Positions 2,779 through 53,738 of a stretch of 64,000 bases of DNA are shown here, one piece after another (the stretch's first letter is position 1; the number at the start of each line of letters is the position of its first letter). The position numbers were made by a program, and so were the translations under genes. The notes beneath the pieces were generated by a model. It ran no database searches, had not been told where the DNA came from, and saw only the letters and a list, made by a program, of their open reading frames with translations. Origin of the DNA: a virus; the IMG/VR virus record IMGVR_UViG_3300031539_000004, positions 62,001 through 126,000 of that record. One strand, written 5' to 3'.

Positions 2779-4101
2779 ATGACCGACACGACCGTCCCCG
2801 CCGACCTCCTCGAGCAGGAGTACGCGACCGTCCCCGTCGACTCGCTCGACCCGCACCCCGACAACCCGAGGCGAGGCGATGTCGACGCGATCGCAGCGTC
2901 GATCGACGCCAACGGGTTCTTCGGAGCGGTCCTCGCCCAACGCGCCACAGCGGATCACGGCCCACGGATCCTCGCCGGCGAACACCGGTGGCTCGCCGCG
3001 CAACGCCACGGCCACCTCGAGATCCCCGTCCTCTGGATCACCTGCGACGACGACCGGGCACGCCGCATCCTGCTGGTAGACAACCGCGCCGACGACCTCG
3101 CCACCTACGACGACCGGTACCTCGCCGACCTCCTCGGCGAAATCAAAACCAGCGAAGCCGGCCTCACCGGCACCGGGTTCGACGGCACCGACCTCCGAGA
3201 ACTCCTCGACCGGCTCGACCCCCAAGACCAAACCCTCGACCCGCCCGACGACGACGACCCGCTCACCAACATCGACCCCGACGCCGAACCCGTCGCCAAG
3301 GTAGGCGACCTCTGGCAGATCGGCCCCCACCGGCTACTCGTCGGCGACTGCTACGACCCCGCCAACCTCGACCGCCTCCTCGACAACACCGAACACGGCA
3401 CCGTCGACGCCGTCGTCACCGACCCCCCCTACGCCATCTACGGCTCAAGCACCGGCATCTCGAGCGACGTAGCCGACGACAAAATGGTTCGCCCGTTCTT
3501 CGAACAACTCGGCCGCCTCATCCGCGCCCGCCTCAAGCCATTCGGCCACGCCTACGTCTTCTGCGACTGGCGCTCATGGGCAACCGTCTGGCACGGAATG
3601 AAAACCGCACGCCTCGCCCCCAAGAACTGCATCGTGTGGGACAAAGGCCGCTTCGGCCTCGGCGGCATGTACGCCAACACCCACGAATTCGTCGGCTTCT
3701 TCGCCAACCTCCCCAACCAACGCACCATGACCTCCAGCGACCAGCGAGGCCAACGCGCCGTCAACAGCGAACCCAACATCTTCCACACCAACCGCCCCAC
3801 CGGAGACGACCGCCAACACAACGCAGCCAAACCCCTCGACCTCCTCCAATGGCTCATCGTCAACAGCACCGACGAAGGCGAAACCATCCTCGACCCCTTC
3901 ACCGGCAGCGGCTCCGTCATCATCGCCGCCCACCACACAGGCCGCATCGCCTACGCCACCGAACTCGAACCCCGCTTCGCCGACATCACCATCCGAAGGG
4001 CAGAACACCTCACCGGCCACACAGCCACCGTCACCCACGCCCCCGAGACAGACGACCCGACCACCAACGACACGACCAGCGACGACCACGACCAGCCATG
4101 A
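2779..4101 (+). CDS. ParB-domain/DNA adenine-N6 or cytosine-N4 methyltransferase fusion
   Basis: A 440-residue protein. Residues 17-110 form a ParB/Srx-like N-terminal domain (VDSLDPHPDNPRR; GEHRWLAA at 67-74). Residues 175-415 form an amino-methyltransferase with catalytic DPPY at 215-218 and the AdoMet motif DPFTGSGS near the C terminus, in the order of the beta class. The fusion is common in phages and mobile elements, where it methylates adenine-N6 or cytosine-N4. ATG 2779 is chosen because TACGCT lies just upstream and the sequence before it is not protein-like. Its A/C-rich coding strand contrasts sharply with the G/T-rich terminase genes that follow. Confidence 0.92.
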   Translation: MTDTTVPADLLEQEYATVPVDSLDPHPDNPRRGDVDAIAASIDANGFFGAVLAQRATADHGPRILAGEHRWLAAQRHGHLEIPVLWITCDDDRARRILLVDNRADDLATYDDRYLADLLGEIKTSEAGLTGTGFDGTDLRELLDRLDPQDQTLDPPDDDDPLTNIDPDAEPVAKVGDLWQIGPHRLLVGDCYDPANLDRLLDNTEHGTVDAVVTDPPYAIYGSSTGISSDVADDKMVRPFFEQLGRLIRARLKPFGHAYVFCDWRSWATVWHGMKTARLAPKNCIVWDKGRFGLGGMYANTHEFVGFFANLPNQRTMTSSDQRGQRAVNSEPNIFHTNRPTGDDRQHNAAKPLDLLQWLIVNSTDEGETILDPFTGSGSVIIAAHHTGRIAYATELEPRFADITIRRAEHLTGHTATVTHAPETDDPTTNDTTSDDHDQP

Positions 4102-4175
4102 CCACACCCAAACCCCAAGCCCCACACGACCCCAAAACCCAACGCGCCCAAAACACCGATGGAGGAACGGATTCG

Positions 4176-4664
4176 GTGATCGAAAGTTCGTCTCGTGATG
4201 GTGGGAGGCCTGCGAAGTGGGCGGATCCTCGGGTGCGGGAGGCGTTGGTGGATGGGGTGAGGATGGGCGCTCCGGTGAAGTATGCGTGTCGGGCGGCGGG
4301 GATTGATGAGGGGACGTTTTATCGGTGGCGGCGGCAGTCGGCTGAGCCGGAGGCCCCGGAGGAGTTGCGGGCGTTGTTTGAGGAGTTGGAGGGGGCTCAT
4401 GCTCGGGCGGTGTTGCGGAACGTCGGGTTGATTCAGGCGGCGGCGCAGGAGTCGAAGCATTGGAAGGCGGCGGCGTGGTGGTTGGAGCGGATGCATCCGG
4501 AGGATTTCGCTCGGCAGGATCCGGGGCAGCTTGGGCAGGGGGGGACGCAGGTGGTGATCGCTTCGGAGGATGACATCAGGCGGTTGCAGGCGACGTTGGA
4601 GCGGCGTGCTGAGGCGTCGGGGGAGTTGGCGGTGGTGGACGCCGAGGTGGTGGGCGATGAGTGA
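4176..4664 (+). CDS. Terminase small subunit (HTH protein)
   Basis: About 162 residues with a helix-turn-helix (VKYACRAAGIDEGTFYRWRR), followed by a helical region ending just inside the large-subunit gene. It lies directly upstream of TerL with an 8-base overlap, the usual place for the DNA-recognition subunit that selects the packaging site. GTG 4176 has a GGAGGA nine bases upstream and begins where base composition switches to that of TerL. An alternative ATG at 4098 would overlap the methyltransferase stop (ATGA) and add 26 low-complexity residues. The identity rests on HTH plus position. Confidence 0.7.
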   Translation: MIESSSRDGGRPAKWADPRVREALVDGVRMGAPVKYACRAAGIDEGTFYRWRRQSAEPEAPEELRALFEELEGAHARAVLRNVGLIQAAAQESKHWKAAAWWLERMHPEDFARQDPGQLGQGGTQVVIASEDDIRRLQATLERRAEASGELAVVDAEVVGDE

Positions 4665-20729: not shown

Positions 20730-21339
20730 TGACCGACTCCTTCAGGCTGGCCCGCAGGTCGTTGACCCACCGGGTGCGGTCGCTGGCCCGGCGCTGTTCC
20801 TTGACCCACTCGTCGCGGGCACGCTCGAGCTGGTCGGTGATGGTGGTGCGGCGCATCGCCCGGTACTCCTCGGGCGACATCGCCCGCTTCGGGTCGCCGT
20901 CGGCGGGGTAGAGCGTCGAGCAGTCGAACCGGATCGACTCGGTGAGCTGGTCGACCATGAACGTCTTCAGCTCCCGGTGCCCGAGGGTGGGAGGTGTCCA
21001 CGCTTCGACCTTGGCGAGCATCGCCTCGTAGCGGGCCTCCTCTTCGGCCTCGCGCTCCCGGCGCTCACGCCGGCGGTCCACCTCGGCGGTGAACGCATCC
21101 ATCGCGGCGTCGGCGGCCTGGTCGTGCGACCAGCCCTCAACCTCGGCCAGCTCGGTCTCCAGCTCGGCGATCCGGTCCCGGTAGTGGCTCGACGGCTGGA
21201 ACTCGTCGGGGATCGGGGTGCCCGTCGGGGCGTCGCGCATCGTGACCAGCGCGCCGAACGCTCGGGCGCACTCGATGGCGAAGACGGCGAGCTCGGTGAC
21301 CTCGCCCTTCTGGACGGACTCGGTGTATCCGGTAGGCAT
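20722..21339 (-). CDS. Coiled-coil hypothetical protein
   Basis: A 205-residue protein. Residues about 50-110 are a charged coiled coil (RDRIAELETELAEVEGW; EVDRRRERREREAEEEARYE). The C-terminal third (MSPEEYRAMRRTTITDQLER) is also helical. ATG 21339 shares a base with the upstream stop. A structural or scaffolding partner is plausible. Confidence 0.7.
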   Translation of the reverse strand: MPTGYTESVQKGEVTELAVFAIECARAFGALVTMRDAPTGTPIPDEFQPSSHYRDRIAELETELAEVEGWSHDQAADAAMDAFTAEVDRRRERREREAEEEARYEAMLAKVEAWTPPTLGHRELKTFMVDQLTESIRFDCSTLYPADGDPKRAMSPEEYRAMRRTTITDQLERARDEWVKEQRRASDRTRWVNDLRASLKESVNG

Positions 21340-21656
21340 CAGCCTTCTCCTTGGTTGGGGTTCGTGTCGTGGTCGCCGCGCATCCCGCGCAACGTGACGA
21401 GGACTTGGCCGGCGGTCGCCTCGTCCAGCCCCACGTCCTCGGTGAGCAGCTTGACGAGCATGGCGTCGGTGACCGCCCCCTCGGCGACCTCCATGAACGC
21501 CTGCGCCTGCTGGCGGCAGGTGGCGGGGTCGAGCTGGCCGTACATGACGGTCCCGTCCTCGGCGATCGCCCGAACGGAGCAGAACCCCTCGAGCTGTTCG
21601 TTGACCCCGGATTCGAGTTCGATGACGGTCAGGATCTTCAGGTCGGGCGTTCCCAC
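21339..21656 (-). CDS. Hypothetical protein
   Basis: A 105-residue protein (MGTPDLKILTVIELESGVNE...) with beta N-terminal half and helical C-terminal half (ATCRQQAQAFMEVAEGAVTD). Preceded by the operator at 21688. Its late KLLTEDVGLDEATAGQVLVT segment is a plain helix pair. Confidence 0.7.
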   Translation of the reverse strand: MGTPDLKILTVIELESGVNEQLEGFCSVRAIAEDGTVMYGQLDPATCRQQAQAFMEVAEGAVTDAMLVKLLTEDVGLDEATAGQVLVTLRGMRGDHDTNPNQGEG

Positions 21657-21684
21657 TCGGGACCTCCTTGGTGGTCGGGTTCGG

Positions 21685-21704
21685 ACCGTAGCATGTGAGG
21701 CTAC
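21685..21704 (-). promoter_or_regulatory. GTAG-N9-CTAC operator with embedded -10
   Basis: GTAGCATGTGAGGCTAC (21688-21704) overlaps a leftward -10-like TACGGT (21690-21685). A short leader with AAGGAGG precedes the gene starting at 21656. Confidence 0.6.
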
Positions 21705-21710
21705 GGCAGA

Positions 21711-22151
21711 TCAGTGGCCGATGTGGAAGAGGCCGAACCGGTCGCGGTCCCACTTCCCGGCGGCGAGCTGTTCGGCGTACACCTTCAGCGCGGCGATCAC
21801 GGGGGCGATGCGCCGGTACCCGTCGTCGCTGGCCTCGAGGGCGAGGATGGTCGTGTCGAAGTCCATCGTCGTCGGCGGCTCGGCGTAGGCGTCCTTGCTC
21901 TGCTGCTGGTCGCCGAAGTAGCGCTGCTCGGCCTCGGGGGCGTCGATCTCGATCGGCCCCCACGCGAGCTGCGGGTACCAGTAGTACCGGTCGGCGTCGA
22001 GGCGGCTCTTGCGGGCCTTGACCAGCTCGGCGAAGTCGCCGTCGTAGCCCATCTTCGACAGGTCGAACGTGGCGACCGGGCGGATCATGGTGCGGCCATC
22101 GCCGAAGCCGTCCATCGTCTCGGCGACGATGAGGGTCGATTCGTATCCCAT
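21711..22151 (-). CDS. Hypothetical protein, aromatic-rich
   Basis: A 146-residue protein (MGYESTLIVAETMDGFGDGR...). RYYWYPQLAWGPIEIDAPEA and DFDTTILALEAS suggest a compact alpha/beta domain. Ribosome-binding site AAGGAGACC upstream. This style of protein is common in actinophage accessory arrays; no function known. Confidence 0.7.
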   Translation of the reverse strand: MGYESTLIVAETMDGFGDGRTMIRPVATFDLSKMGYDGDFAELVKARKSRLDADRYYWYPQLAWGPIEIDAPEAEQRYFGDQQQSKDAYAEPPTTMDFDTTILALEASDDGYRRIAPVIAALKVYAEQLAAGKWDRDRFGLFHIGH

Positions 22152-29318: not shown

Positions 29319-29351
29319 GCGCATCCAGCATCGGGCCAGAACGACGAAAGG

Positions 29352-29377
29352 CCCCCGAGGCCCGAAGGCCCCGAGGG
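29352..29377 (-). terminator. Rho-independent terminator of the first large RNA
   Basis: On the minus strand an 11-bp stem with a TTCG loop is followed by CCTTTCGTCGTTC. The stem has no mismatch, only G-T wobbles. Confidence 0.75.
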
Positions 29378-29674
29378 CGGTCCGTGATGGCGAGGCGGTC
29401 ACGCCGACCGAGATGCGACGCCGGGGGCAACCCAGCTTTGCGAACCCGATCCGGTTGTTCCTCACGTCCGGTGCTCCGCTCGACGCCAGTTGATCAGGCT
29501 GGCGGCGTCGGGCCGCGTGAGTCCCCTGGTGGTTTGTCCGGCACCTCGGCCGGCGTCACCGCCTCGCAGGTTGTGCTCACTCCCCGGCCCCGTCGGCCGC
29601 GGTTCGTAGTCGGTCCCAGCCTTGCGGCGTGCCGACCCGGCCCTTGGTCCTGTCGGGCGTGGTAGTGAGCTGAG

Positions 29675-29763
29675 TGCCACCGGGGGGAGTTGAACCCCTG
29701 CCCGCCCCTCTCGGGGCGTCCCGGCCTCGGGGGCCGATCCGCTTCCGGCTGCCGTGCCGTGGC
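29675..29763 (-). tRNA. tRNA-like element inside large RNA 1 (degenerate)
   Basis: 89 bases fit a long-variable-arm tRNA: acceptor GCCACGG/CGGTGGC, D-loop AGCCGGAA, anticodon-like stem TCGGC/GCCGG with loop CCCCGAG, variable hairpin GCCCC-GAGA-GGGGC, T-loop TTCAACT. There are mismatches at 6:67, 11:24 and 49:65, position 33 is C instead of T, and no CCA. A formal anticodon would be CCG, which does not fit a long variable arm. More likely a tRNA-derived structural module than a working tRNA. Confidence 0.4.
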
Positions 29764-31212
29764 GTGAGTGAGTGGTTGCAGCCCATCATCCGCCGGGGCC
29801 GAGCGGTCGCGCTTGGCGACTTCATTCCCGGGTTCGGGCTTCGCTGCTCCGCCACTCGGCGGCGTGGTTCTCGTATCACCTTCTCTCGCTCGTTGGTCGG
29901 TTTCGATTCTGGCGGCGCTGCTCGGCTCGAGGCCTGCTGCTGCTCGTTGCGAAGTCTGCTCCGGGGTTTATCTGAGGAGTCGGAGCGGCCCCCTCCCGGT
30001 CGCGATGCCGGGCCCGTTTGTTGTCGTTTGCCAGAAGGGGGCGGGTCTCCCCCCGACCGCTTCGCCGTATCCGGCTCGTCGGTGCTAGTCCGTGGCGGCG
30101 CTGCCTTGCCCCCGAGGGGGCCGGCGCTGCTCGCCTTGCGATTGCCCAGGGTTCCTCGTGGCAGCGAGGCCGACCGAGGAGCTCCTCGATCGGGCCAGCG
30201 GTTATCTCAGTTTCCCCGGTCGCTTGGTCTGCGATCCGGCACCCTCTCGGGTGGCTGGTCCCTACCTCATGGCCGCCCGTTGTGGGCGGCGCGTCATTGA
30301 GTGGTTCAAGTGATCCGACCCCGTGGCCGCTGCTTCCAGCCGAGGCTGGGTATGCGGTTCGATCGTCGGGCTTGGCCGAGCTGGCTGCCACCAGCTCGAC
30401 GCCTCCGTTTTACCCGCCGGTTACCCGGTTAGTGGGAGCCCCCGGTACTACTGACCGTTCCCGTGGGCTAGAGGTCCATCGCCGTCTGTTGCGCCTCGGC
30501 GAGTCGTTCGACTGGCCGAGGTTGTTGCGAGCTTGCCGGGGTTCGGTGGCTTGCGCCACCCGGTCCCGGCGACCGGTTCGGAGCGTCGTCGGCGTTGGCC
30601 TCTGCTCCTGTTCGGCAGCCTCGTTGTGAGTGTTCGCCCGAGGGGGTTTCCCTCAACCGGCGCAACGCTCCGGGGCTGCCTATGTCGGTTCCAGCTCACC
30701 GCGCTCCTCCCGCTATCCCGGCGCTGACGCTTCAAAGCTTTCATGCTTTCCGGGCTCGGGCGCTTCGGTGAGCTGTCCCGTAATCCTTCACCCCGAGGCT
30801 GCGTTGAGCCGTTCGGATCCCGCTCCGATTCGCCGAGGCTTACGCCTCGAGGTGGCTGATCGACGCTCAAGCGGGCCTCCCGCCGGTTGGCGGTGCTCGT
30901 TCTCGTTGGTTGCTCGGGTGCGCTGTGGGGGTGACTTGGCCTGCTGGCCTGACGCCACCCGCTCCGCTTTGCCTCACTCGCCCTGCCGGGCTCGTCCGTT
31001 AGTCGCTCCGGCGGGAGGCCCGCTTGAGCGTCGATCGTTGCTTTGTTCGCCGTGTCCGGCTGCGGTTGCTCCGCTGCCCGAGGCTTGCCCTCGTAGTCTC
31101 ACCAGTTGGTCCGGTGCCGACCTTGCGCCGCTCGAGCCCTTATGGCTTCGGCCTCTCGGCCTGGCGACTCGCCCCGGGTCTTGTGGGGGCTTCCCGTCTT
31201 GCTTACGAGGAC

Positions 31213-31306
31213 AACGTAACTTCCCCGCTGTAGCCGAGTCAACTACAAAGAGGGGTTCCGAGGGAACAACGCCCTGACCAGCATCTATGTAGCCGAAGAA
31301 GCTACA
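31213..31306 (-). promoter_or_regulatory. Promoter of large RNA 1: two operators flanking a GCTGGTCA motif
   Basis: Operator 31229-31247 (leftward TGTAGTTGACTCGGCTACA) with -35 TTGACT, 17-bp spacer and -10 TACGTT (31218-31213). GCTGGTCA (inverse at 31275-31282) lies 27 bp behind it, and a second operator, 31288-31306, follows 5 bp further. The only place with two operators. Confidence 0.8.
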
Positions 31307-36444: not shown

Positions 36445-36584
36445 GCTGGGAACTGCTGGCCGGCGTCGGGGCTGTGGTGGCGCTCGGTTGTGGTGGTGGT
36501 CCGGTTCATCTGGCGGAATTGGCGCTGAGCTCGGGGGCGTTTCCGCTGGTCAGCGAGTTGTTCCCCGAGAACCCCCGTTTGTAG
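36441..36584 (+). CDS. Possible small membrane protein, perhaps frameshifted
   Basis: A GTGA overlap points to a start at GTG 36441 (VSWELLAGVGAVVALGCGGG...). In this frame the product runs across the GCTGGTCA motif into the promoter of large RNA 2. If one base were shifted within CTCGGTTGTGG, it would instead read SVVVVVRFIWRNWR and stop before the motif, a typical single-pass membrane protein. Either a sequencing error or a degenerating gene. Confidence 0.3.
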   Translation: MSWELLAGVGAVVALGCGGGPVHLAELALSSGAFPLVSELFPENPRL

Positions 36585-36613
36585 TTGATTCGGCTACAGC
36601 GGTATGCCATGCT
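36545..36613 (+). promoter_or_regulatory. Composite promoter of large RNA 2
   Basis: GCTGGTCA (36545-36552), 27 bp, operator TGTAGTTGATTCGGCTACA (36580-36598) with -35 TTGATT, then -10 CATGCT (36608-36613). The RNA should start near 36620. No ATG at the start site, unlike the gene promoters. Confidence 0.8.
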
Positions 36614-36619
36614 GGTCCT

Positions 36620-38037
36620 CGTCGGGAAGCCCCCACATACCCGGCAAGCAAGTAGGGGCGAGTCGCAACAGCGGCGGGCAGCACCAGCCACCGGTGAGAC
36701 CACCCGAGAGGGGGCAGGGGAGCCAACCCCGGCAGTAGCGAACAAGGCAGACCGAGGGGGAAGCCCTCGGAGCGCCGATCGCCTGGCGCTCGTACCAAGT
36801 GAGGCGAACCGATCGAGAGCACCTTGATCGGGCTTGGCACCTCGGAGGTACCGCCCCGAAGTAACGCCAACGACTCCAGCCCTGACGGCTAACGACCACG
36901 ACTCACCCCTCGAGGTGAGCGACCCCTGAACGAAGGCTGGACGAGGTCGAAAAGGCAAAGCGAGTGAACGAGGAGAACGAGCCGAAGAACCCCGGATGAG
37001 AACCACGGAGCTGCAGCGAAGTGGGGAGAGCATGGGGGTCGGAGGCTCGGGCCAAGCCCGATCAAGGTGCTCACGATCGGGAAGCTCGACCGGCCGCCTC
37101 GGTGGGCCGAGCGTCACAGACACGGGGTTCGAACCCCCGGCTAGGCACGAGCAAGTGCCAACCTCCTTCGGCCCTGCCGCTCGGAGCGCCTCCCCGGCAT
37201 GGGGTAGCGGAGACGGAACCAGATGCGACGCTCGCTCCACCGAGGCGGCTGGTCGAGAGCAGAGTCGGTGGCCCTCATGGGGTCATCGGGTCAGCGAGCT
37301 CAGGACTCGCCCGCAGTAATGCCCTCGGGAACACCGGGGGCCGTGGCCGAGCTGGAACCTCCTCCCCCTGCCGGTAACGCGGGCAGGGGCATGGGACATG
37401 CCAGCGACGCTGCGAGGGCGGAGGAAATGGGAGCATGCCAAACCGGCCCGAGAGGGTGGGCAACACGCAAGCGGTGGCGAAGCCCTTCTAGAGCTGAGAG
37501 GTCGGCGTCGAGCGATCGGCGCAGCAGCGTAAACCCGGCGACGAGCCGGGGTGGTCGGCCTAGCATCGCAACCCCGGTGAACCCATGAAGGTCACCGACT
37601 CGAGCTGCTACGCCAGCGTCGGACCCGACTCGGGGGCGGCGACTTCAGCGAACCGATCCAAGACCAAGTAGGCCGGCGACTCCCCTCCGGGGCGAGCGCC
37701 GACGAACGTGCGGACACCGGTCGACTCGGAGCGCCACCGCGAGGGAGACCGGTGAAGGGGTGGCTGGCTGAGGAACCTCCCCCAAGAGGGCCCCGGCGTG
37801 CGCGGTTGAGACAACCCAAGCGTCGGGAAGCGGTACCAAGGAACACGGCTAAGTAGTCCAGCCGGTGAGGGGGCCGGGAGCGAGTGATCGCCCGGGTGTG
37901 ATGAGCATGGGAGACGGCCAGCGAGCAGGCCCGATGGATACGTCTGGCCGCGCTCAACACCTCCCACCGAAGCTCCTCGGGGCCGGCGTTGGCGTAGCAG
38001 CTCGAGGGGCCCTCGGCTTCGGCCGGGGGCTTCTTCT
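36620..38037 (+). ncRNA. Large structured non-coding RNA 2 (about 1.4 kb)
   Basis: No credible reading frame. Strong stems with purine loops: 36752-36758/36764-36770, nested 36795-36799/36833-36837 and 36809-36814/36826-36831, 37365-37372/37382-37389, 37534-37539/37545-37550, 37715-37722/37747-37754. The 5' domain aligns with RNA 1: GGGAAGCCCCCACA, GGGGCGAGTCGC, GGTGAGACCAC, AGCGAACAAGGCA and AACGAGGAGAACGAGC occur in the same order. A strong T-arm-like hairpin with GGGGTTCGAACCCC is at 37124-37137. It ends at a terminator. Two homologous giant RNAs on one phage genome is notable. Confidence 0.75.
38009..38037 (+). terminator. Rho-independent terminator of large RNA 2
   Basis: 9-bp GC stem GCCCTCGGC/GCCGGGGGC (one G-T pair) with TTCG loop, followed by TTCTTCT. 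Placed between the RNA and the AAA ATPase promoter. Confidence 0.8.
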
Positions 38038-38087
38038 CGTTCCGGGGTTCCTGTTCCGTGGCCCTCGGCTGGAATAGGCTGGCCCGC

Positions 38088-50171: not shown

Positions 50172-53100
50172 ATGGCAGACCAGCTCGATCTCCTCGACCC
50201 GCTGCAGTCGCAGGAAATCCTCGACGCCGTGCGGGTTCTTGCCCGCTCCGACGCGTCGAAGATGGTCCTCGATGCGCTCACCGCTTCGTCAGCGGATCCC
50301 TCCGACGGGATGCCCGACATCGATCCGGTCGAGGTCAACCTGCGAGAGGCCGGCGTCGGCGCGGTCGACTACTGCGGGAAGTGCCGGTTCTGGCAGCCGC
50401 CCGGCGAGCTCGCCGACAGTGAGTTCGTGACCGGGACCTGCGCGATCGTGACCGGGGACATCGACTACCAGGACGTCTGCGATCTGTACGAGGAACGTGT
50501 GACCGCCGGCGACGGCGAGCTGCCCGAGGCGGCCGGGACGCAGATCCCGAACCCCGGCGACGGCATGGGGGAACCCGATGACGACGGCGACGGCCCCACG
50601 CCGGGGGGGGAGGTCGATGGACCGGCTCCGACGATCGAGGGGGACAACGCCTCGACGGTGGCCGAGGTGTTCGGCGACGAGTTCTGGCGCGAGTACCAGG
50701 AAGAGGACGAGCACGGCGGGGTGATCGTGACCGTCGAGCCGACCCCCGAGCAGAAGCAGGCGCTCGAGCAGCCCGGCGGTATGCCGGCCGACCAGCTCCA
50801 TTTGACGCTGGCGAAGATCGATGGTGTCGACAATGACGCTGCCGCCACGGAGGTACTCGGGGTGCTCCTCGAGCTCGCCGCCGAGTACCCGGCGTTCTCG
50901 GGTGAGGTCGCCGGCACCGGCGCTCTCGGCGAGCGCCAGTGGGGCGTCGCTCTGGTCGACGCGGAAGATCTCGGGCTGCTGCGGAGCGAGGTGATCGAGG
51001 CGCTAGTCGACGCCGGAATCATGGTCTCCGACGACCACGACTTCATCCCACACATCACGCTCACCGAGGGTCCCATCCCGGCCGACGCTGCGATCGTGGG
51101 CCTACCATTGACGTTCGACAGTCTCGTCCTTCGGGTCGGCTCGCAGGTCATCGCAGTTGGGATGGATGGCCCGGCCCCCGCCGATGAAGTGGATGTCGAG
51201 GAGGAACCCGTGGCACCGACCATGACCGAACCCGAAGCCCCCGAAGACGCTCCGATGGAGCCTGCCCCCGCTGAGGGCGAGGCTGCCACGATGAGTATCG
51301 ATGACCGCCAGGAGCGGATCCGTCGCGCGCTGCGCCAGATGAGCCTCGATGACCGCGAGATGCTCCGCAGCCAGCTCGAGGTGCCCGCCGACGAGCCGAT
51401 GGTGGCCGCCGGGACCGACGCCGAGCTGGTCGAGGACTCCGGTGCCCCGCCGCCCGAGGTCGCGCCCGTCGAGGAGCCGGCCGAGGCCGACACCGACGGC
51501 GAGGAGATCGCCGAGCTCGAGACCGAGGTGTTCGGCGCGATCGCTCCGCACGACACGCCCACCTCCGACGACGCGTGGGACGGACCCGAGAACGACGTTC
51601 GGGTGAGCTCGCCGAACGATCCCGACTACTTCGACGCGGTCTACGCGTGGCGCGACGACGACGGGGATCTCGATGTGAAGGCCGCCTACCGGTTCATCCA
51701 CCACTTCGTGAGCGAGTCCGGCGACCCGGGAGCGGCTTCGACGGTGGCGTGCTCGACCGGCATCGGCGTTCTGAACGGCGGCCGCGGTGGGACGACCATC
51801 CCGGGCGACGACCGGCAGGGCGTCTACGACCATCTCGCCGCGCACCTGCGCGACGCCGACATGGAGCCGCCCGAGCTCATGTCCGACGAGGAGGCCGCGC
51901 TGGTGGCGCGTGCCCACGAGTCGGGCGTCCAGATCAACCCCGCCGACCCGGATTCTGTCCGGTCGGCTCTCGAGCACACGATCTTGGCCGATGAGGCCGA
52001 GGCGGCGCTCGCAAAGGCTGAGGAGGCCGACGTGGTGGACCTGACCGACATCGAGGATTCGGCGCTGCTCACCGAGCTGGCCCGCAGGGTGCTTCTCGAG
52101 GCCGCTGACGGGGTTGCGGCCGCCGAGGCCGCCGAAGGCGACGACACGGCCGCTGAGGGCGTCGAGATGGCCGAGGACGGCGACGCTCCCGAGGTCGAGC
52201 CAGAGGTCGAGGACGTGGTGGTCGGCGAGTTCGATGACGGCGACCAGGACTACGACTGGACCGGCATCATCATCGTGGAAGGCCTCCCCTCGGGGGATGG
52301 CCGGATGGTCGCCGAGGGCGGGCTGACGTGGCGCGAGTTGCCGCTGCCGCTCATGCTGCAGACGGTGAACGCCCCGGGCCACGAAGGCTCCGAGATCGCC
52401 GGCTCGATCCACAAGCTCGAGCGGCGCGGCCAGGACATCCTCGGGTGGGGCAAGTTCGACTCGGGCAAGGCTGGCACCGAGTACCGCCGGCTCCTCACCG
52501 AGAAGACCATGCGGGGCGTGTCGGCCGACATCGACTCCGTGAAGGTCGAGTTCCGTGACCCCGAGTCGGGCGACTCGATCGACCCGGCCGACCTGCTCTT
52601 CGGTGACCCGATGATGGAGGTCATGGAGGTGCTCACCGAGGGCCGGATCATGGGCGCGACGGGGACCCCGTTCCCGGCGTTCCAGGAGGCCCACATCGAG
52701 CTGATCGGCGCTGCCATCGAGGACGAGGCGCTGGTCGCTTCCGCCGCGTGGATCACCGAGACGACCGGCAACGCGTTCGCCTTGGCTGGCGACGGCTACC
52801 GGGTCTACACCCCGATCGAGCAGGCACCGTGGGTGCTGCGCGGCGAGGAGCCGGTGTCGCTGGTCGCTTCGGCCGGCGAGTCGCCCGAGCTCGAGATCCC
52901 GATGCATCCGTCGCTCGAGTGGTTCGCTCCGACGAACACGGTGGAGCCGTTCACGGTCCACGCCGATGGGCGGATCACCGGGCTGCTCGCCAAGTTCGGG
53001 ACGTGCCACATCGGCCGCTCCGACCGGTGCATCCCGGTGCCCACCTCCCGCGACGGGTACAGCCACTTCCGCAACAAGAAGGTGCTGAGCGCCGAGGGTG

Positions 53101-53738
53101 AGCTGGTCGCGACCGGGCCGATCTTCATGGACACGGTCCACCCCGACCTGAAGCTGAAGGCGTCCGACACCGAGGCCCACTACCACGACACGGGCTGCGC
53201 GGTCGCCGATGTGGCGGTGTACGACACGGACCACGGCATCGAGGTCTGCGGGGCGCTCCGACCGGACGTGACCGAGGAGCAGATCCGCCGGCTGCGTGGC
53301 AGCGACATCTCGCCCGACTGGCGCAAGATGGCCGGGCGGCTCGAGATGGTCGGCCTCCTGGCGGTGAACGTCAGCGGGTTCGTGGTGCAGGGCCTCGTCG
53401 CCGCAGGAGCGCACGCCACGCCGAGGGCGGCCGGGTACTACGACACGGTGACCGGCGAGTGCGAGAGCCTCGTCGCCGCCGGCATGGTGCTGCAGGACCG
53501 GCCGGTCGAGCCGATCGACATCGACGCAACGGTCCGTGAGCTGCAGGCCGAGGTCGCCGAGCTGCGGGAGGCCATGCGGCCGATCCGTGCCGAGCGGGCC
53601 ACGGCCAAGTTCACGGAGCGGGTGTTCGCCGAGCTCGCCGAGGATGTCGAGGCCGTGCAGGCCGAGGTCGCCGAGGGTGACCCCCTCGAGGACGTGACCG
53701 AGGCCCCCGCCGAGTGCGAGTGCCACAAGCTCCGCTGA
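50172..53738 (+). CDS. Multidomain capsid-maturation protease with 2H phosphoesterase domain
   Basis: A 1188-residue protein. Residues 60-110 hold four Cys (YCGKCRFW...C...C). Residues about 175-305 form a 2H phosphoesterase-like domain with HLT (210-212) and HIT (294-296), the two catalytic H-x-T motifs. Acidic linkers follow. About 460-560 (YFDAVYAWRDDDGDLDVKAA) is a phage-specific domain. Residues about 690-900 (WTGIIIVEGLPSGDGRMVAE ... MRGVSADIDSV) match the actinophage prohead protease. A C-terminal coiled coil follows. It likely trims the scaffold; the 2H domain is an unusual passenger. Confidence 0.8.
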   Translation: MADQLDLLDPLQSQEILDAVRVLARSDASKMVLDALTASSADPSDGMPDIDPVEVNLREAGVGAVDYCGKCRFWQPPGELADSEFVTGTCAIVTGDIDYQDVCDLYEERVTAGDGELPEAAGTQIPNPGDGMGEPDDDGDGPTPGGEVDGPAPTIEGDNASTVAEVFGDEFWREYQEEDEHGGVIVTVEPTPEQKQALEQPGGMPADQLHLTLAKIDGVDNDAAATEVLGVLLELAAEYPAFSGEVAGTGALGERQWGVALVDAEDLGLLRSEVIEALVDAGIMVSDDHDFIPHITLTEGPIPADAAIVGLPLTFDSLVLRVGSQVIAVGMDGPAPADEVDVEEEPVAPTMTEPEAPEDAPMEPAPAEGEAATMSIDDRQERIRRALRQMSLDDREMLRSQLEVPADEPMVAAGTDAELVEDSGAPPPEVAPVEEPAEADTDGEEIAELETEVFGAIAPHDTPTSDDAWDGPENDVRVSSPNDPDYFDAVYAWRDDDGDLDVKAAYRFIHHFVSESGDPGAASTVACSTGIGVLNGGRGGTTIPGDDRQGVYDHLAAHLRDADMEPPELMSDEEAALVARAHESGVQINPADPDSVRSALEHTILADEAEAALAKAEEADVVDLTDIEDSALLTELARRVLLEAADGVAAAEAAEGDDTAAEGVEMAEDGDAPEVEPEVEDVVVGEFDDGDQDYDWTGIIIVEGLPSGDGRMVAEGGLTWRELPLPLMLQTVNAPGHEGSEIAGSIHKLERRGQDILGWGKFDSGKAGTEYRRLLTEKTMRGVSADIDSVKVEFRDPESGDSIDPADLLFGDPMMEVMEVLTEGRIMGATGTPFPAFQEAHIELIGAAIEDEALVASAAWITETTGNAFALAGDGYRVYTPIEQAPWVLRGEEPVSLVASAGESPELEIPMHPSLEWFAPTNTVEPFTVHADGRITGLLAKFGTCHIGRSDRCIPVPTSRDGYSHFRNKKVLSAEGELVATGPIFMDTVHPDLKLKASDTEAHYHDTGCAVADVAVYDTDHGIEVCGALRPDVTEEQIRRLRGSDISPDWRKMAGRLEMVGLLAVNVSGFVVQGLVAAGAHATPRAAGYYDTVTGECESLVAAGMVLQDRPVEPIDIDATVRELQAEVAELREAMRPIRAERATAKFTERVFAELAEDVEAVQAEVAEGDPLEDVTEAPAECECHKLR

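Follow-up and report, generated by a model that had tools for sequence, protein, structure and literature searches.

To our knowledge, the large ornate phage RNAs GOLLD and ROOL rank with the most complex RNAs described so far, and we know of no function for them. Both are phage-borne, are often found near transfer RNAs (tRNAs) and form RNA nanocages, and the linker of GOLLD can carry tRNAs (PMC12286853). As cited in PMC7567579, GOLLD accumulates in lytic infection and was dispensable in one prophage. Long, abundantly expressed non-coding RNAs (ncRNAs) that lack open reading frames (ORFs) have also been described in the phages ICP1 (PMC7567579) and K (PMC9241854), and the authors liken them to GOLLD and ROOL. 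Here we analyze RNA1, a predicted 1.86-kb structured ncRNA located in a window of 64,000 nucleotides (nt), i.e., positions 62001-126000 of the 128,695-bp virus record IMGVR_UViG_3300031539_000004. We consider it probable, judging from its sequence, that RNA1 is a trans-acting, architecturally folded phage ncRNA and one of a paralogous pair with RNA2, a second predicted ncRNA of ~1.43 kb in the same window.

RNA1 and RNA2 resemble GOLLD as large phage or prophage RNAs with strong secondary structure and with one conserved and one variable part, but they have no covariance match to it and the conserved core is a different one. The tRNAs adjacent to GOLLD or in its linker may have a counterpart in tRNA-like elements, which are weak in RNA1 and better in RNA2. 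The likeness to ROOL is that of long, phage-encoded RNAs often found near tRNA islands; however, there is no Rfam match, and while ROOL forms an RNA-only nanocage, RNA1 and RNA2 are known from sequence alone. The ICP1 and phage K ncRNAs are likewise ORF-less, long phage transcripts, but they belong to other hosts, their expression has been shown, and they are likened by description and not by sequence. The core RNAs of Bixzunavirus and Myrnavirus phages (Yucca, Myrna, Phabba and ScoobyDoobyDoo) are also similar. RNA2 has the same core (124 bits), and in RNA1, which shares the 5' domain of RNA2, a helix-closed domain occupies the corresponding position. These RNAs differ in spanning ~430-700 nt, and RNA1 does not have the core sequence. 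The best reading appears to be that RNA1 and RNA2 are GOLLD-like in style and new in family.

An initial annotation of the window had described the RNA1 stretch as lacking any credible gene, and our results agree, as none of the ORFs across it has a Pfam match or contains a coding remnant detectable by Pfam, and the 3-base GC periodicity is 0.033 compared to a median of 0.17 in other windows. The dense stems it had seen on one strand were also recovered. Perfect GNRA/UNCG hairpins with stems of at least 4 pairs are found 8 times on the RNA1 strand and 0 times on the opposite strand (expected 0.61; p ~3e-7), and folding of the RNA1 strand against dinucleotide shuffles gives a mean z of -2.5 with peaks of -6.8 and -6.1, while coding controls in the same test range from -1.2 to +0.5. 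The composition of RNA1 is rich in purines (57%) and poor in U (8.7%).

The support for a large folded phage ncRNA is strengthened because a paralogue, RNA2, is present in the same phage. In a blastn comparison of the two regions, the similarity extends across the promoter and the 5' domain (E 2e-16), and a further match covers the promoters and first RNA blocks of the two (E 2e-8). The shared 5' domain of ~165 nt contains the blocks CGGGAAGCCCCCACA, GGGGCGAGUCGC, GGUGAGACNAC, GGGCAG and GCGAACAARGCA in the same order. In the hairpins between these blocks the sequence has changed and the pairing is kept (CGAGG/CCUCG vs CCC/GGG; GCGG/CCGC vs GGGG/CCCC), a covariation between two sequences, which are too few for statistics. 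A MAFFT alignment of the two 5' domains was unreliable and was not used. The 3' ends carry similar UUCG terminators, which align weakly by blastn (E 1.3). As judged from these similarities, RNA1 and RNA2 are a paralogous pair which shares promoter, 5' domain and terminator type.

The promoters of both RNAs have the same layout as those of other genes in the phage. The predicted RNA1 promoter has a -35 box, TTGACT (31242-31237), within a palindromic operator, followed by an 18-nt spacer, a -10 box, TACGTT (31218-31213), and a start at ~31206. A search for perfect matches to the operator, TGTAG-N9-CTACA, gave 20 sites in the 128.7-kb record and none in a reversed control. In many copies the inner part forms the -35 box (TTGACT, TTGATT or TTGCTT) and a TANNNT-like -10 box follows at the usual distance, and in many of these promoters an apparently leaderless gene begins with its ATG ~6 nt past the -10 box. 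The dispersed operator looks like a phage-wide regulon, and we infer that a repressor may bind to it. The initial annotation had predicted that RNA1 has its own regulated promoter and a terminator, and both these elements and its start and end for the RNA coincide with what we located. A strict sigma-70/terminator scan missed the RNA1 and RNA2 promoters and the RNA1 terminator. Operator sites in the window lie at 2091, 13149, 18429, 23066, 25722, 31229, 31288, 36580, 42188, 45280, 54848, 55668 and 57038, and 7 more lie outside it.

The RNA2 core can be followed into other phages. The entry point was a 31-nt RNA2 match to Bxz1-like mycobacteriophages, which turned out to be half of a conserved internal loop. 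Family members were collected by pattern scans of IMG/VR with one loop half and, independently, with the other half; in the members retrieved by the latter, the first half is unchanged except for a single C/U difference. The recovered members carry the whole motif P1 - CUGACGGYUAACGACCACGA - P2 - CGAYCCCUGAAYGAA - P1'. With R1, a covariance model built from 21 sequences, 33 distinct phage loci reach 57-136 bits and unrelated sequence at most ~16 bits, and members outside the model-building set (ScoobyDoobyDoo, which is L138, Myrna, L179, L183, L191, L203 and L206) score 109-124 bits. The core is single copy in each of the 23 records searched whole. In a MAFFT alignment which was not fitted to the structure, compensatory changes are found at all 11 of the 11 P1/P2 pairs, and the covariation score of 0.591 compares with 0.187 +/- 0.028 for the shuffled control and at most 0.10 for the slid one. 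With 33 sequences the score is 0.867 vs 0.204 shuffled. Covariation among homologues, which the initial annotation had named as a check, was thus obtained for the RNA2 core domain and not for RNA1 as a whole. RNAalifold gave no supported structure for the 3' half of the core family, probably due to alignment noise, and one candidate member, L136, was a chance match. The core family is absent from Rfam 15, no description of it was found in open-access papers, and the RNA2 core belongs, by these sequence comparisons, to a previously undescribed phage RNA family.

Around the core, most members have an outer helix (P0) of ~20-35 bp, the sequence of which is different in each phage. The flank duplex energy is -71.2 kcal/mol within a phage compared to -49.8 +/- 9.1 between phages, and in ten further members -61.3 within vs -43.1 between phages. 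In some standalone members a TANNNT -10 box is found just upstream of the outer helix. RNA1 has a long outer helix as well, a feature which alone is insufficient for membership in the core family. It closes domain II (RNA nt 170-349), which directly follows the shared 5' domain at a position equivalent to that of the RNA2 core domain, and the enclosed nucleotides contain CUAACG, GGCAAAGCG and GAGAACGAGC, words resembling pieces of the RNA2 domain. Homology between domain II and the RNA2 core domain is put forward only as a hypothesis because model R1 does not recognise RNA1. A microRNA-like Rfam match in RNA1 was the inverted repeat of the outer helix.

Table 1. Predicted features of RNA1 and RNA2 in window coordinates, and unannotated RNAs of the core family in other records.
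Feature	Position	Strand	Basis or remark
RNA1, structured ncRNA of 1.86 kb (predicted)	31206 -> 29345	-	ORFs without Pfam match, folding z, tetraloops
RNA1 operator/promoter TGTAGTTGACTCGGCTACA	31247-31229	-	TGTAG-N9-CTACA site, among the 20 perfect ones
Second operator copy upstream of RNA1	31288-31306	unassigned	TGTAG-N9-CTACA site
RNA1 5' domain common to RNA2	31037-31206	-	blastn E 2e-16, motifs in same order
RNA1 domain II, 121 nt within a perfect 29-bp helix (31036-31008 paired to 30886-30858)	30858-31036	-	inverted repeat
Weak tRNA-like element in RNA1	29763-29674	-	ARAGORN tRNA-Arg CCG
RNA1 terminator, UUCG hairpin (29378-29350) and moderately U-rich tail	29340-29378	-	read directly from sequence
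RNA2, predicted paralogous ~1.43-kb structured ncRNA	36620-38045	+	no credible gene, structure, similarity to RNA1
RNA2 operator/promoter TGTAGTTGATTCGGCTACA; -10 CATGCT (36608-36613)	36580-36598	+	operator layout
RNA2 core domain within a 22-bp outer helix (36817-36838 paired to 37051-37072)	36817-37072	+	
RNA2 conserved core (model R1)	36840-36993	+	124 bits, covariation
Consensus T-arm CGGGGTTCGAACCCCCG in RNA2	37122-37140	+	perfect, 50 nt past core domain
RNA2 terminator, UUCG hairpin (38009-38030) and U-rich tail	38009-38041	+	sequence
Unannotated core-family RNA, Yucca (21284-21762)	L106:3862-4340		
Unannotated core-family RNA, Myrna	L209, gap 3181-3883		
Unannotated core-family RNA, Phabba	L137, 2920-3507		
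Unannotated core-family RNA, ScoobyDoobyDoo	L138, locus 3895-4434		

If RNA1 is a trans-acting folded RNA, it would be transcribed leftward from the promoter with its -35 box inside the operator, be switched on alongside the operator-controlled genes and end at the UUCG terminator. The RNA might then accumulate during infection or induction and fold as a multi-domain scaffold, in which the long helix would either close the core or serve as an RNase III processing stem. The near-invariant internal loop surface, the sequence of which is kept while every surrounding helix drifts, may bind a conserved host or phage partner. This partner would most plausibly belong to the translation or tRNA machinery, because tRNA or transfer-messenger RNA (tmRNA) elements often follow the core, and binding is envisaged much as has been proposed for GOLLD/ROOL-type RNAs. 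In this model, RNA1 would be a diverged sister which has kept the 5' domain and has a different and smaller domain II, and the 5' domain, as the conserved part of RNA1, would be the obvious site of shared docking with RNA2. A more tentative idea, which we find rather doubtful, is a previously unknown phage RNA machine made up of RNA1 and RNA2, switched on through one operator class, in which a common 5' docking domain lets them assemble together or with a common partner. If so, one RNA would carry the near-invariant, actinophage-wide core, its counterpart in the other would be a specialised substitute, and the target might be the translation or tRNA apparatus.

Several observations weigh against the interpretation of RNA1 as a trans-acting folded RNA. 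No RNA1 homologues were found outside its own phage, as blastn against phage records gave no match, terminase-based relatives of the phage had no RNA1 match, and scans of viral and bacterial contigs with the 5' motif pattern of RNA1 and RNA2 returned only the same phage and chance matches. Covariation for RNA1 is limited to the two-sequence comparison with RNA2, and the best covariance score for the R1 core in RNA1 is 6.2 bits with filters off. The tRNA-like part which the initial annotation had noted is called by ARAGORN but appears weak, as it is below the Rfam tRNA cut-off, has no U33, folds with a z of -0.18 and gives a weak mascRNA match (E 0.47). In the core family, members were retrieved by exact patterns, so the apparent invariance of the loop is inflated, and G-U pairs are nearly absent from P1/P2 (~360 pair cells in the 33-locus alignment A4), which is unusual for RNA. 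Additionally, the core was not found in any of 397 Actinomycetota genomes, in a search under stricter filters which had no positive control. Oligomer formation and the binding partner are pure inference.

Among the alternatives, the one which fares best, although we regard it as unlikely, is that the functional product is small, i.e., that RNase III processing at the long helix releases domain II (~120-250 nt) and that the rest of RNA1 is a carrier. RNase III processing stems flank precursor ribosomal RNAs, and the outer helix of the core family is kept as pairing and not as sequence. The standalone members are also only ~430-600 nt, barely more than the helix-closed domain. However, the part conserved between RNA1 and RNA2 is the 5' domain, the structure signal of RNA1 extends past domain II, and giant versions recur in several phages. 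The ORF-poor space around the core is ~450-700 nt in Yucca, Phabba, ScoobyDoobyDoo and Myrna, and 1.4-2.4 kb in RNA2, L172, L163 and L165.

We find it improbable that RNA1 is a cis-acting leader, i.e., a long 5' untranslated region or attenuator of a small downstream gene which starts at ~29291. This ORF is on the same strand, and the small family members are likewise followed by same-strand genes, but the downstream genes vary among phages, the other operator-class genes are leaderless, a length of 1.86 kb would be extreme and a terminator closes RNA1. Even less probable is a DNA-level element (a replication or packaging signal, or a cruciform array) or a decayed gene. The scarcity of G-U pairs in the P1 and P2 helices of the core family and the large inverted repeats would fit a DNA element, but the tetraloops are strand-specific, the composition is U-poor and purine-rich, the promoter and terminator flank one strand, the downstream T-arms are on the same strand, and there is no coding remnant.

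The initial annotation had likened RNA1 to GOLLD and ROOL and suggested a covariance search with the GOLLD, ROOL, OLE and HEARO models of Rfam, and this search gave no match. With curated and relaxed thresholds, RNA1 and RNA2 had chance matches only; OLE, HEARO and group I/II introns gave no Rfam match, and RF01998 (a group II intron family) was also negative. The GOLLD model (RF02032) was silent in the whole phage record and in all 22 records searched, although the same model scored 144.5 bits, under the 150-bit cut-off, in another actinobacterial genome used as positive control. No ROOL match was found in the full Rfam scans, which had no separate ROOL positive control. A divergent GOLLD or ROOL RNA, as might be suggested by the size, the phage setting, the neighbouring or embedded tRNA-like elements and the long-range closing helix, is therefore hardly credible, since the tool that is silent here detects a GOLLD-like RNA elsewhere in Actinomycetota, which in turn reaches at most 12.6 bits with R1, and the likeness is one of analogy only. 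The GOLLD-like RNA of the control genome, L210 (G341:C68:44655-45107), has an apparent tRNA immediately downstream.

The tRNA-like elements are better in RNA2 and in several of its relatives than in RNA1. In the 1.5 kb that follows the core, T-arms of tRNA type on the core strand number 7 in ~30 kb, compared to 12 in 1.45 Mb of background, and this set includes two tmRNA genes (L162 and L164) and one tRNA (L168). The phage tmRNA genes lie directly downstream of the core on the same strand, at +1030 to +1425 in L162 and at +597 to +922 in L164.

Among annotated phage records, the core is found only in Mycobacterium/Mycolicibacterium phages (~194 records), which comprise Bixzunavirus together with Myrna, Phabba and ScoobyDoobyDoo. 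In many Bixzunavirus records, genes for a "hypothetical protein" are drawn over part of the core RNA. The core family would be an addition to the ornate phage RNAs which is unrelated to GOLLD and ROOL and has a nearly invariant internal loop, and its presence in ~194 sequenced records of mycobacteriophages which grow in a standard laboratory strain means that what such RNAs do becomes directly testable. The phage of the window would in turn provide an example in which one operator class governs two paralogous giant RNAs. Matches to the core in Aeromonas, Klebsiella and other phages were short chance matches, and the plasmid matches were weak and likewise due to chance.

The phage record has a G+C content of ~69% and contains large-phage genes (terminase and portal proteins), and its host is likely actinobacterial, based on the base composition and the hosts of the relatives. 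The sole IMG/VR contig found with the RNA-adjacent protein, IMGVR_UViG_3300031566_000045, is 100% identical over the region; it is the same virus and hence provides no independent evidence. The first third of a protein of 1188 amino acids (window 50172-53738, + strand) matches RNA ligase families and the remainder matches portal/head maturation families, and the protein is possibly a fusion. The sole clear tRNA within the window is a tRNA-Met(CAT) gene at 2527-2604 on the - strand.
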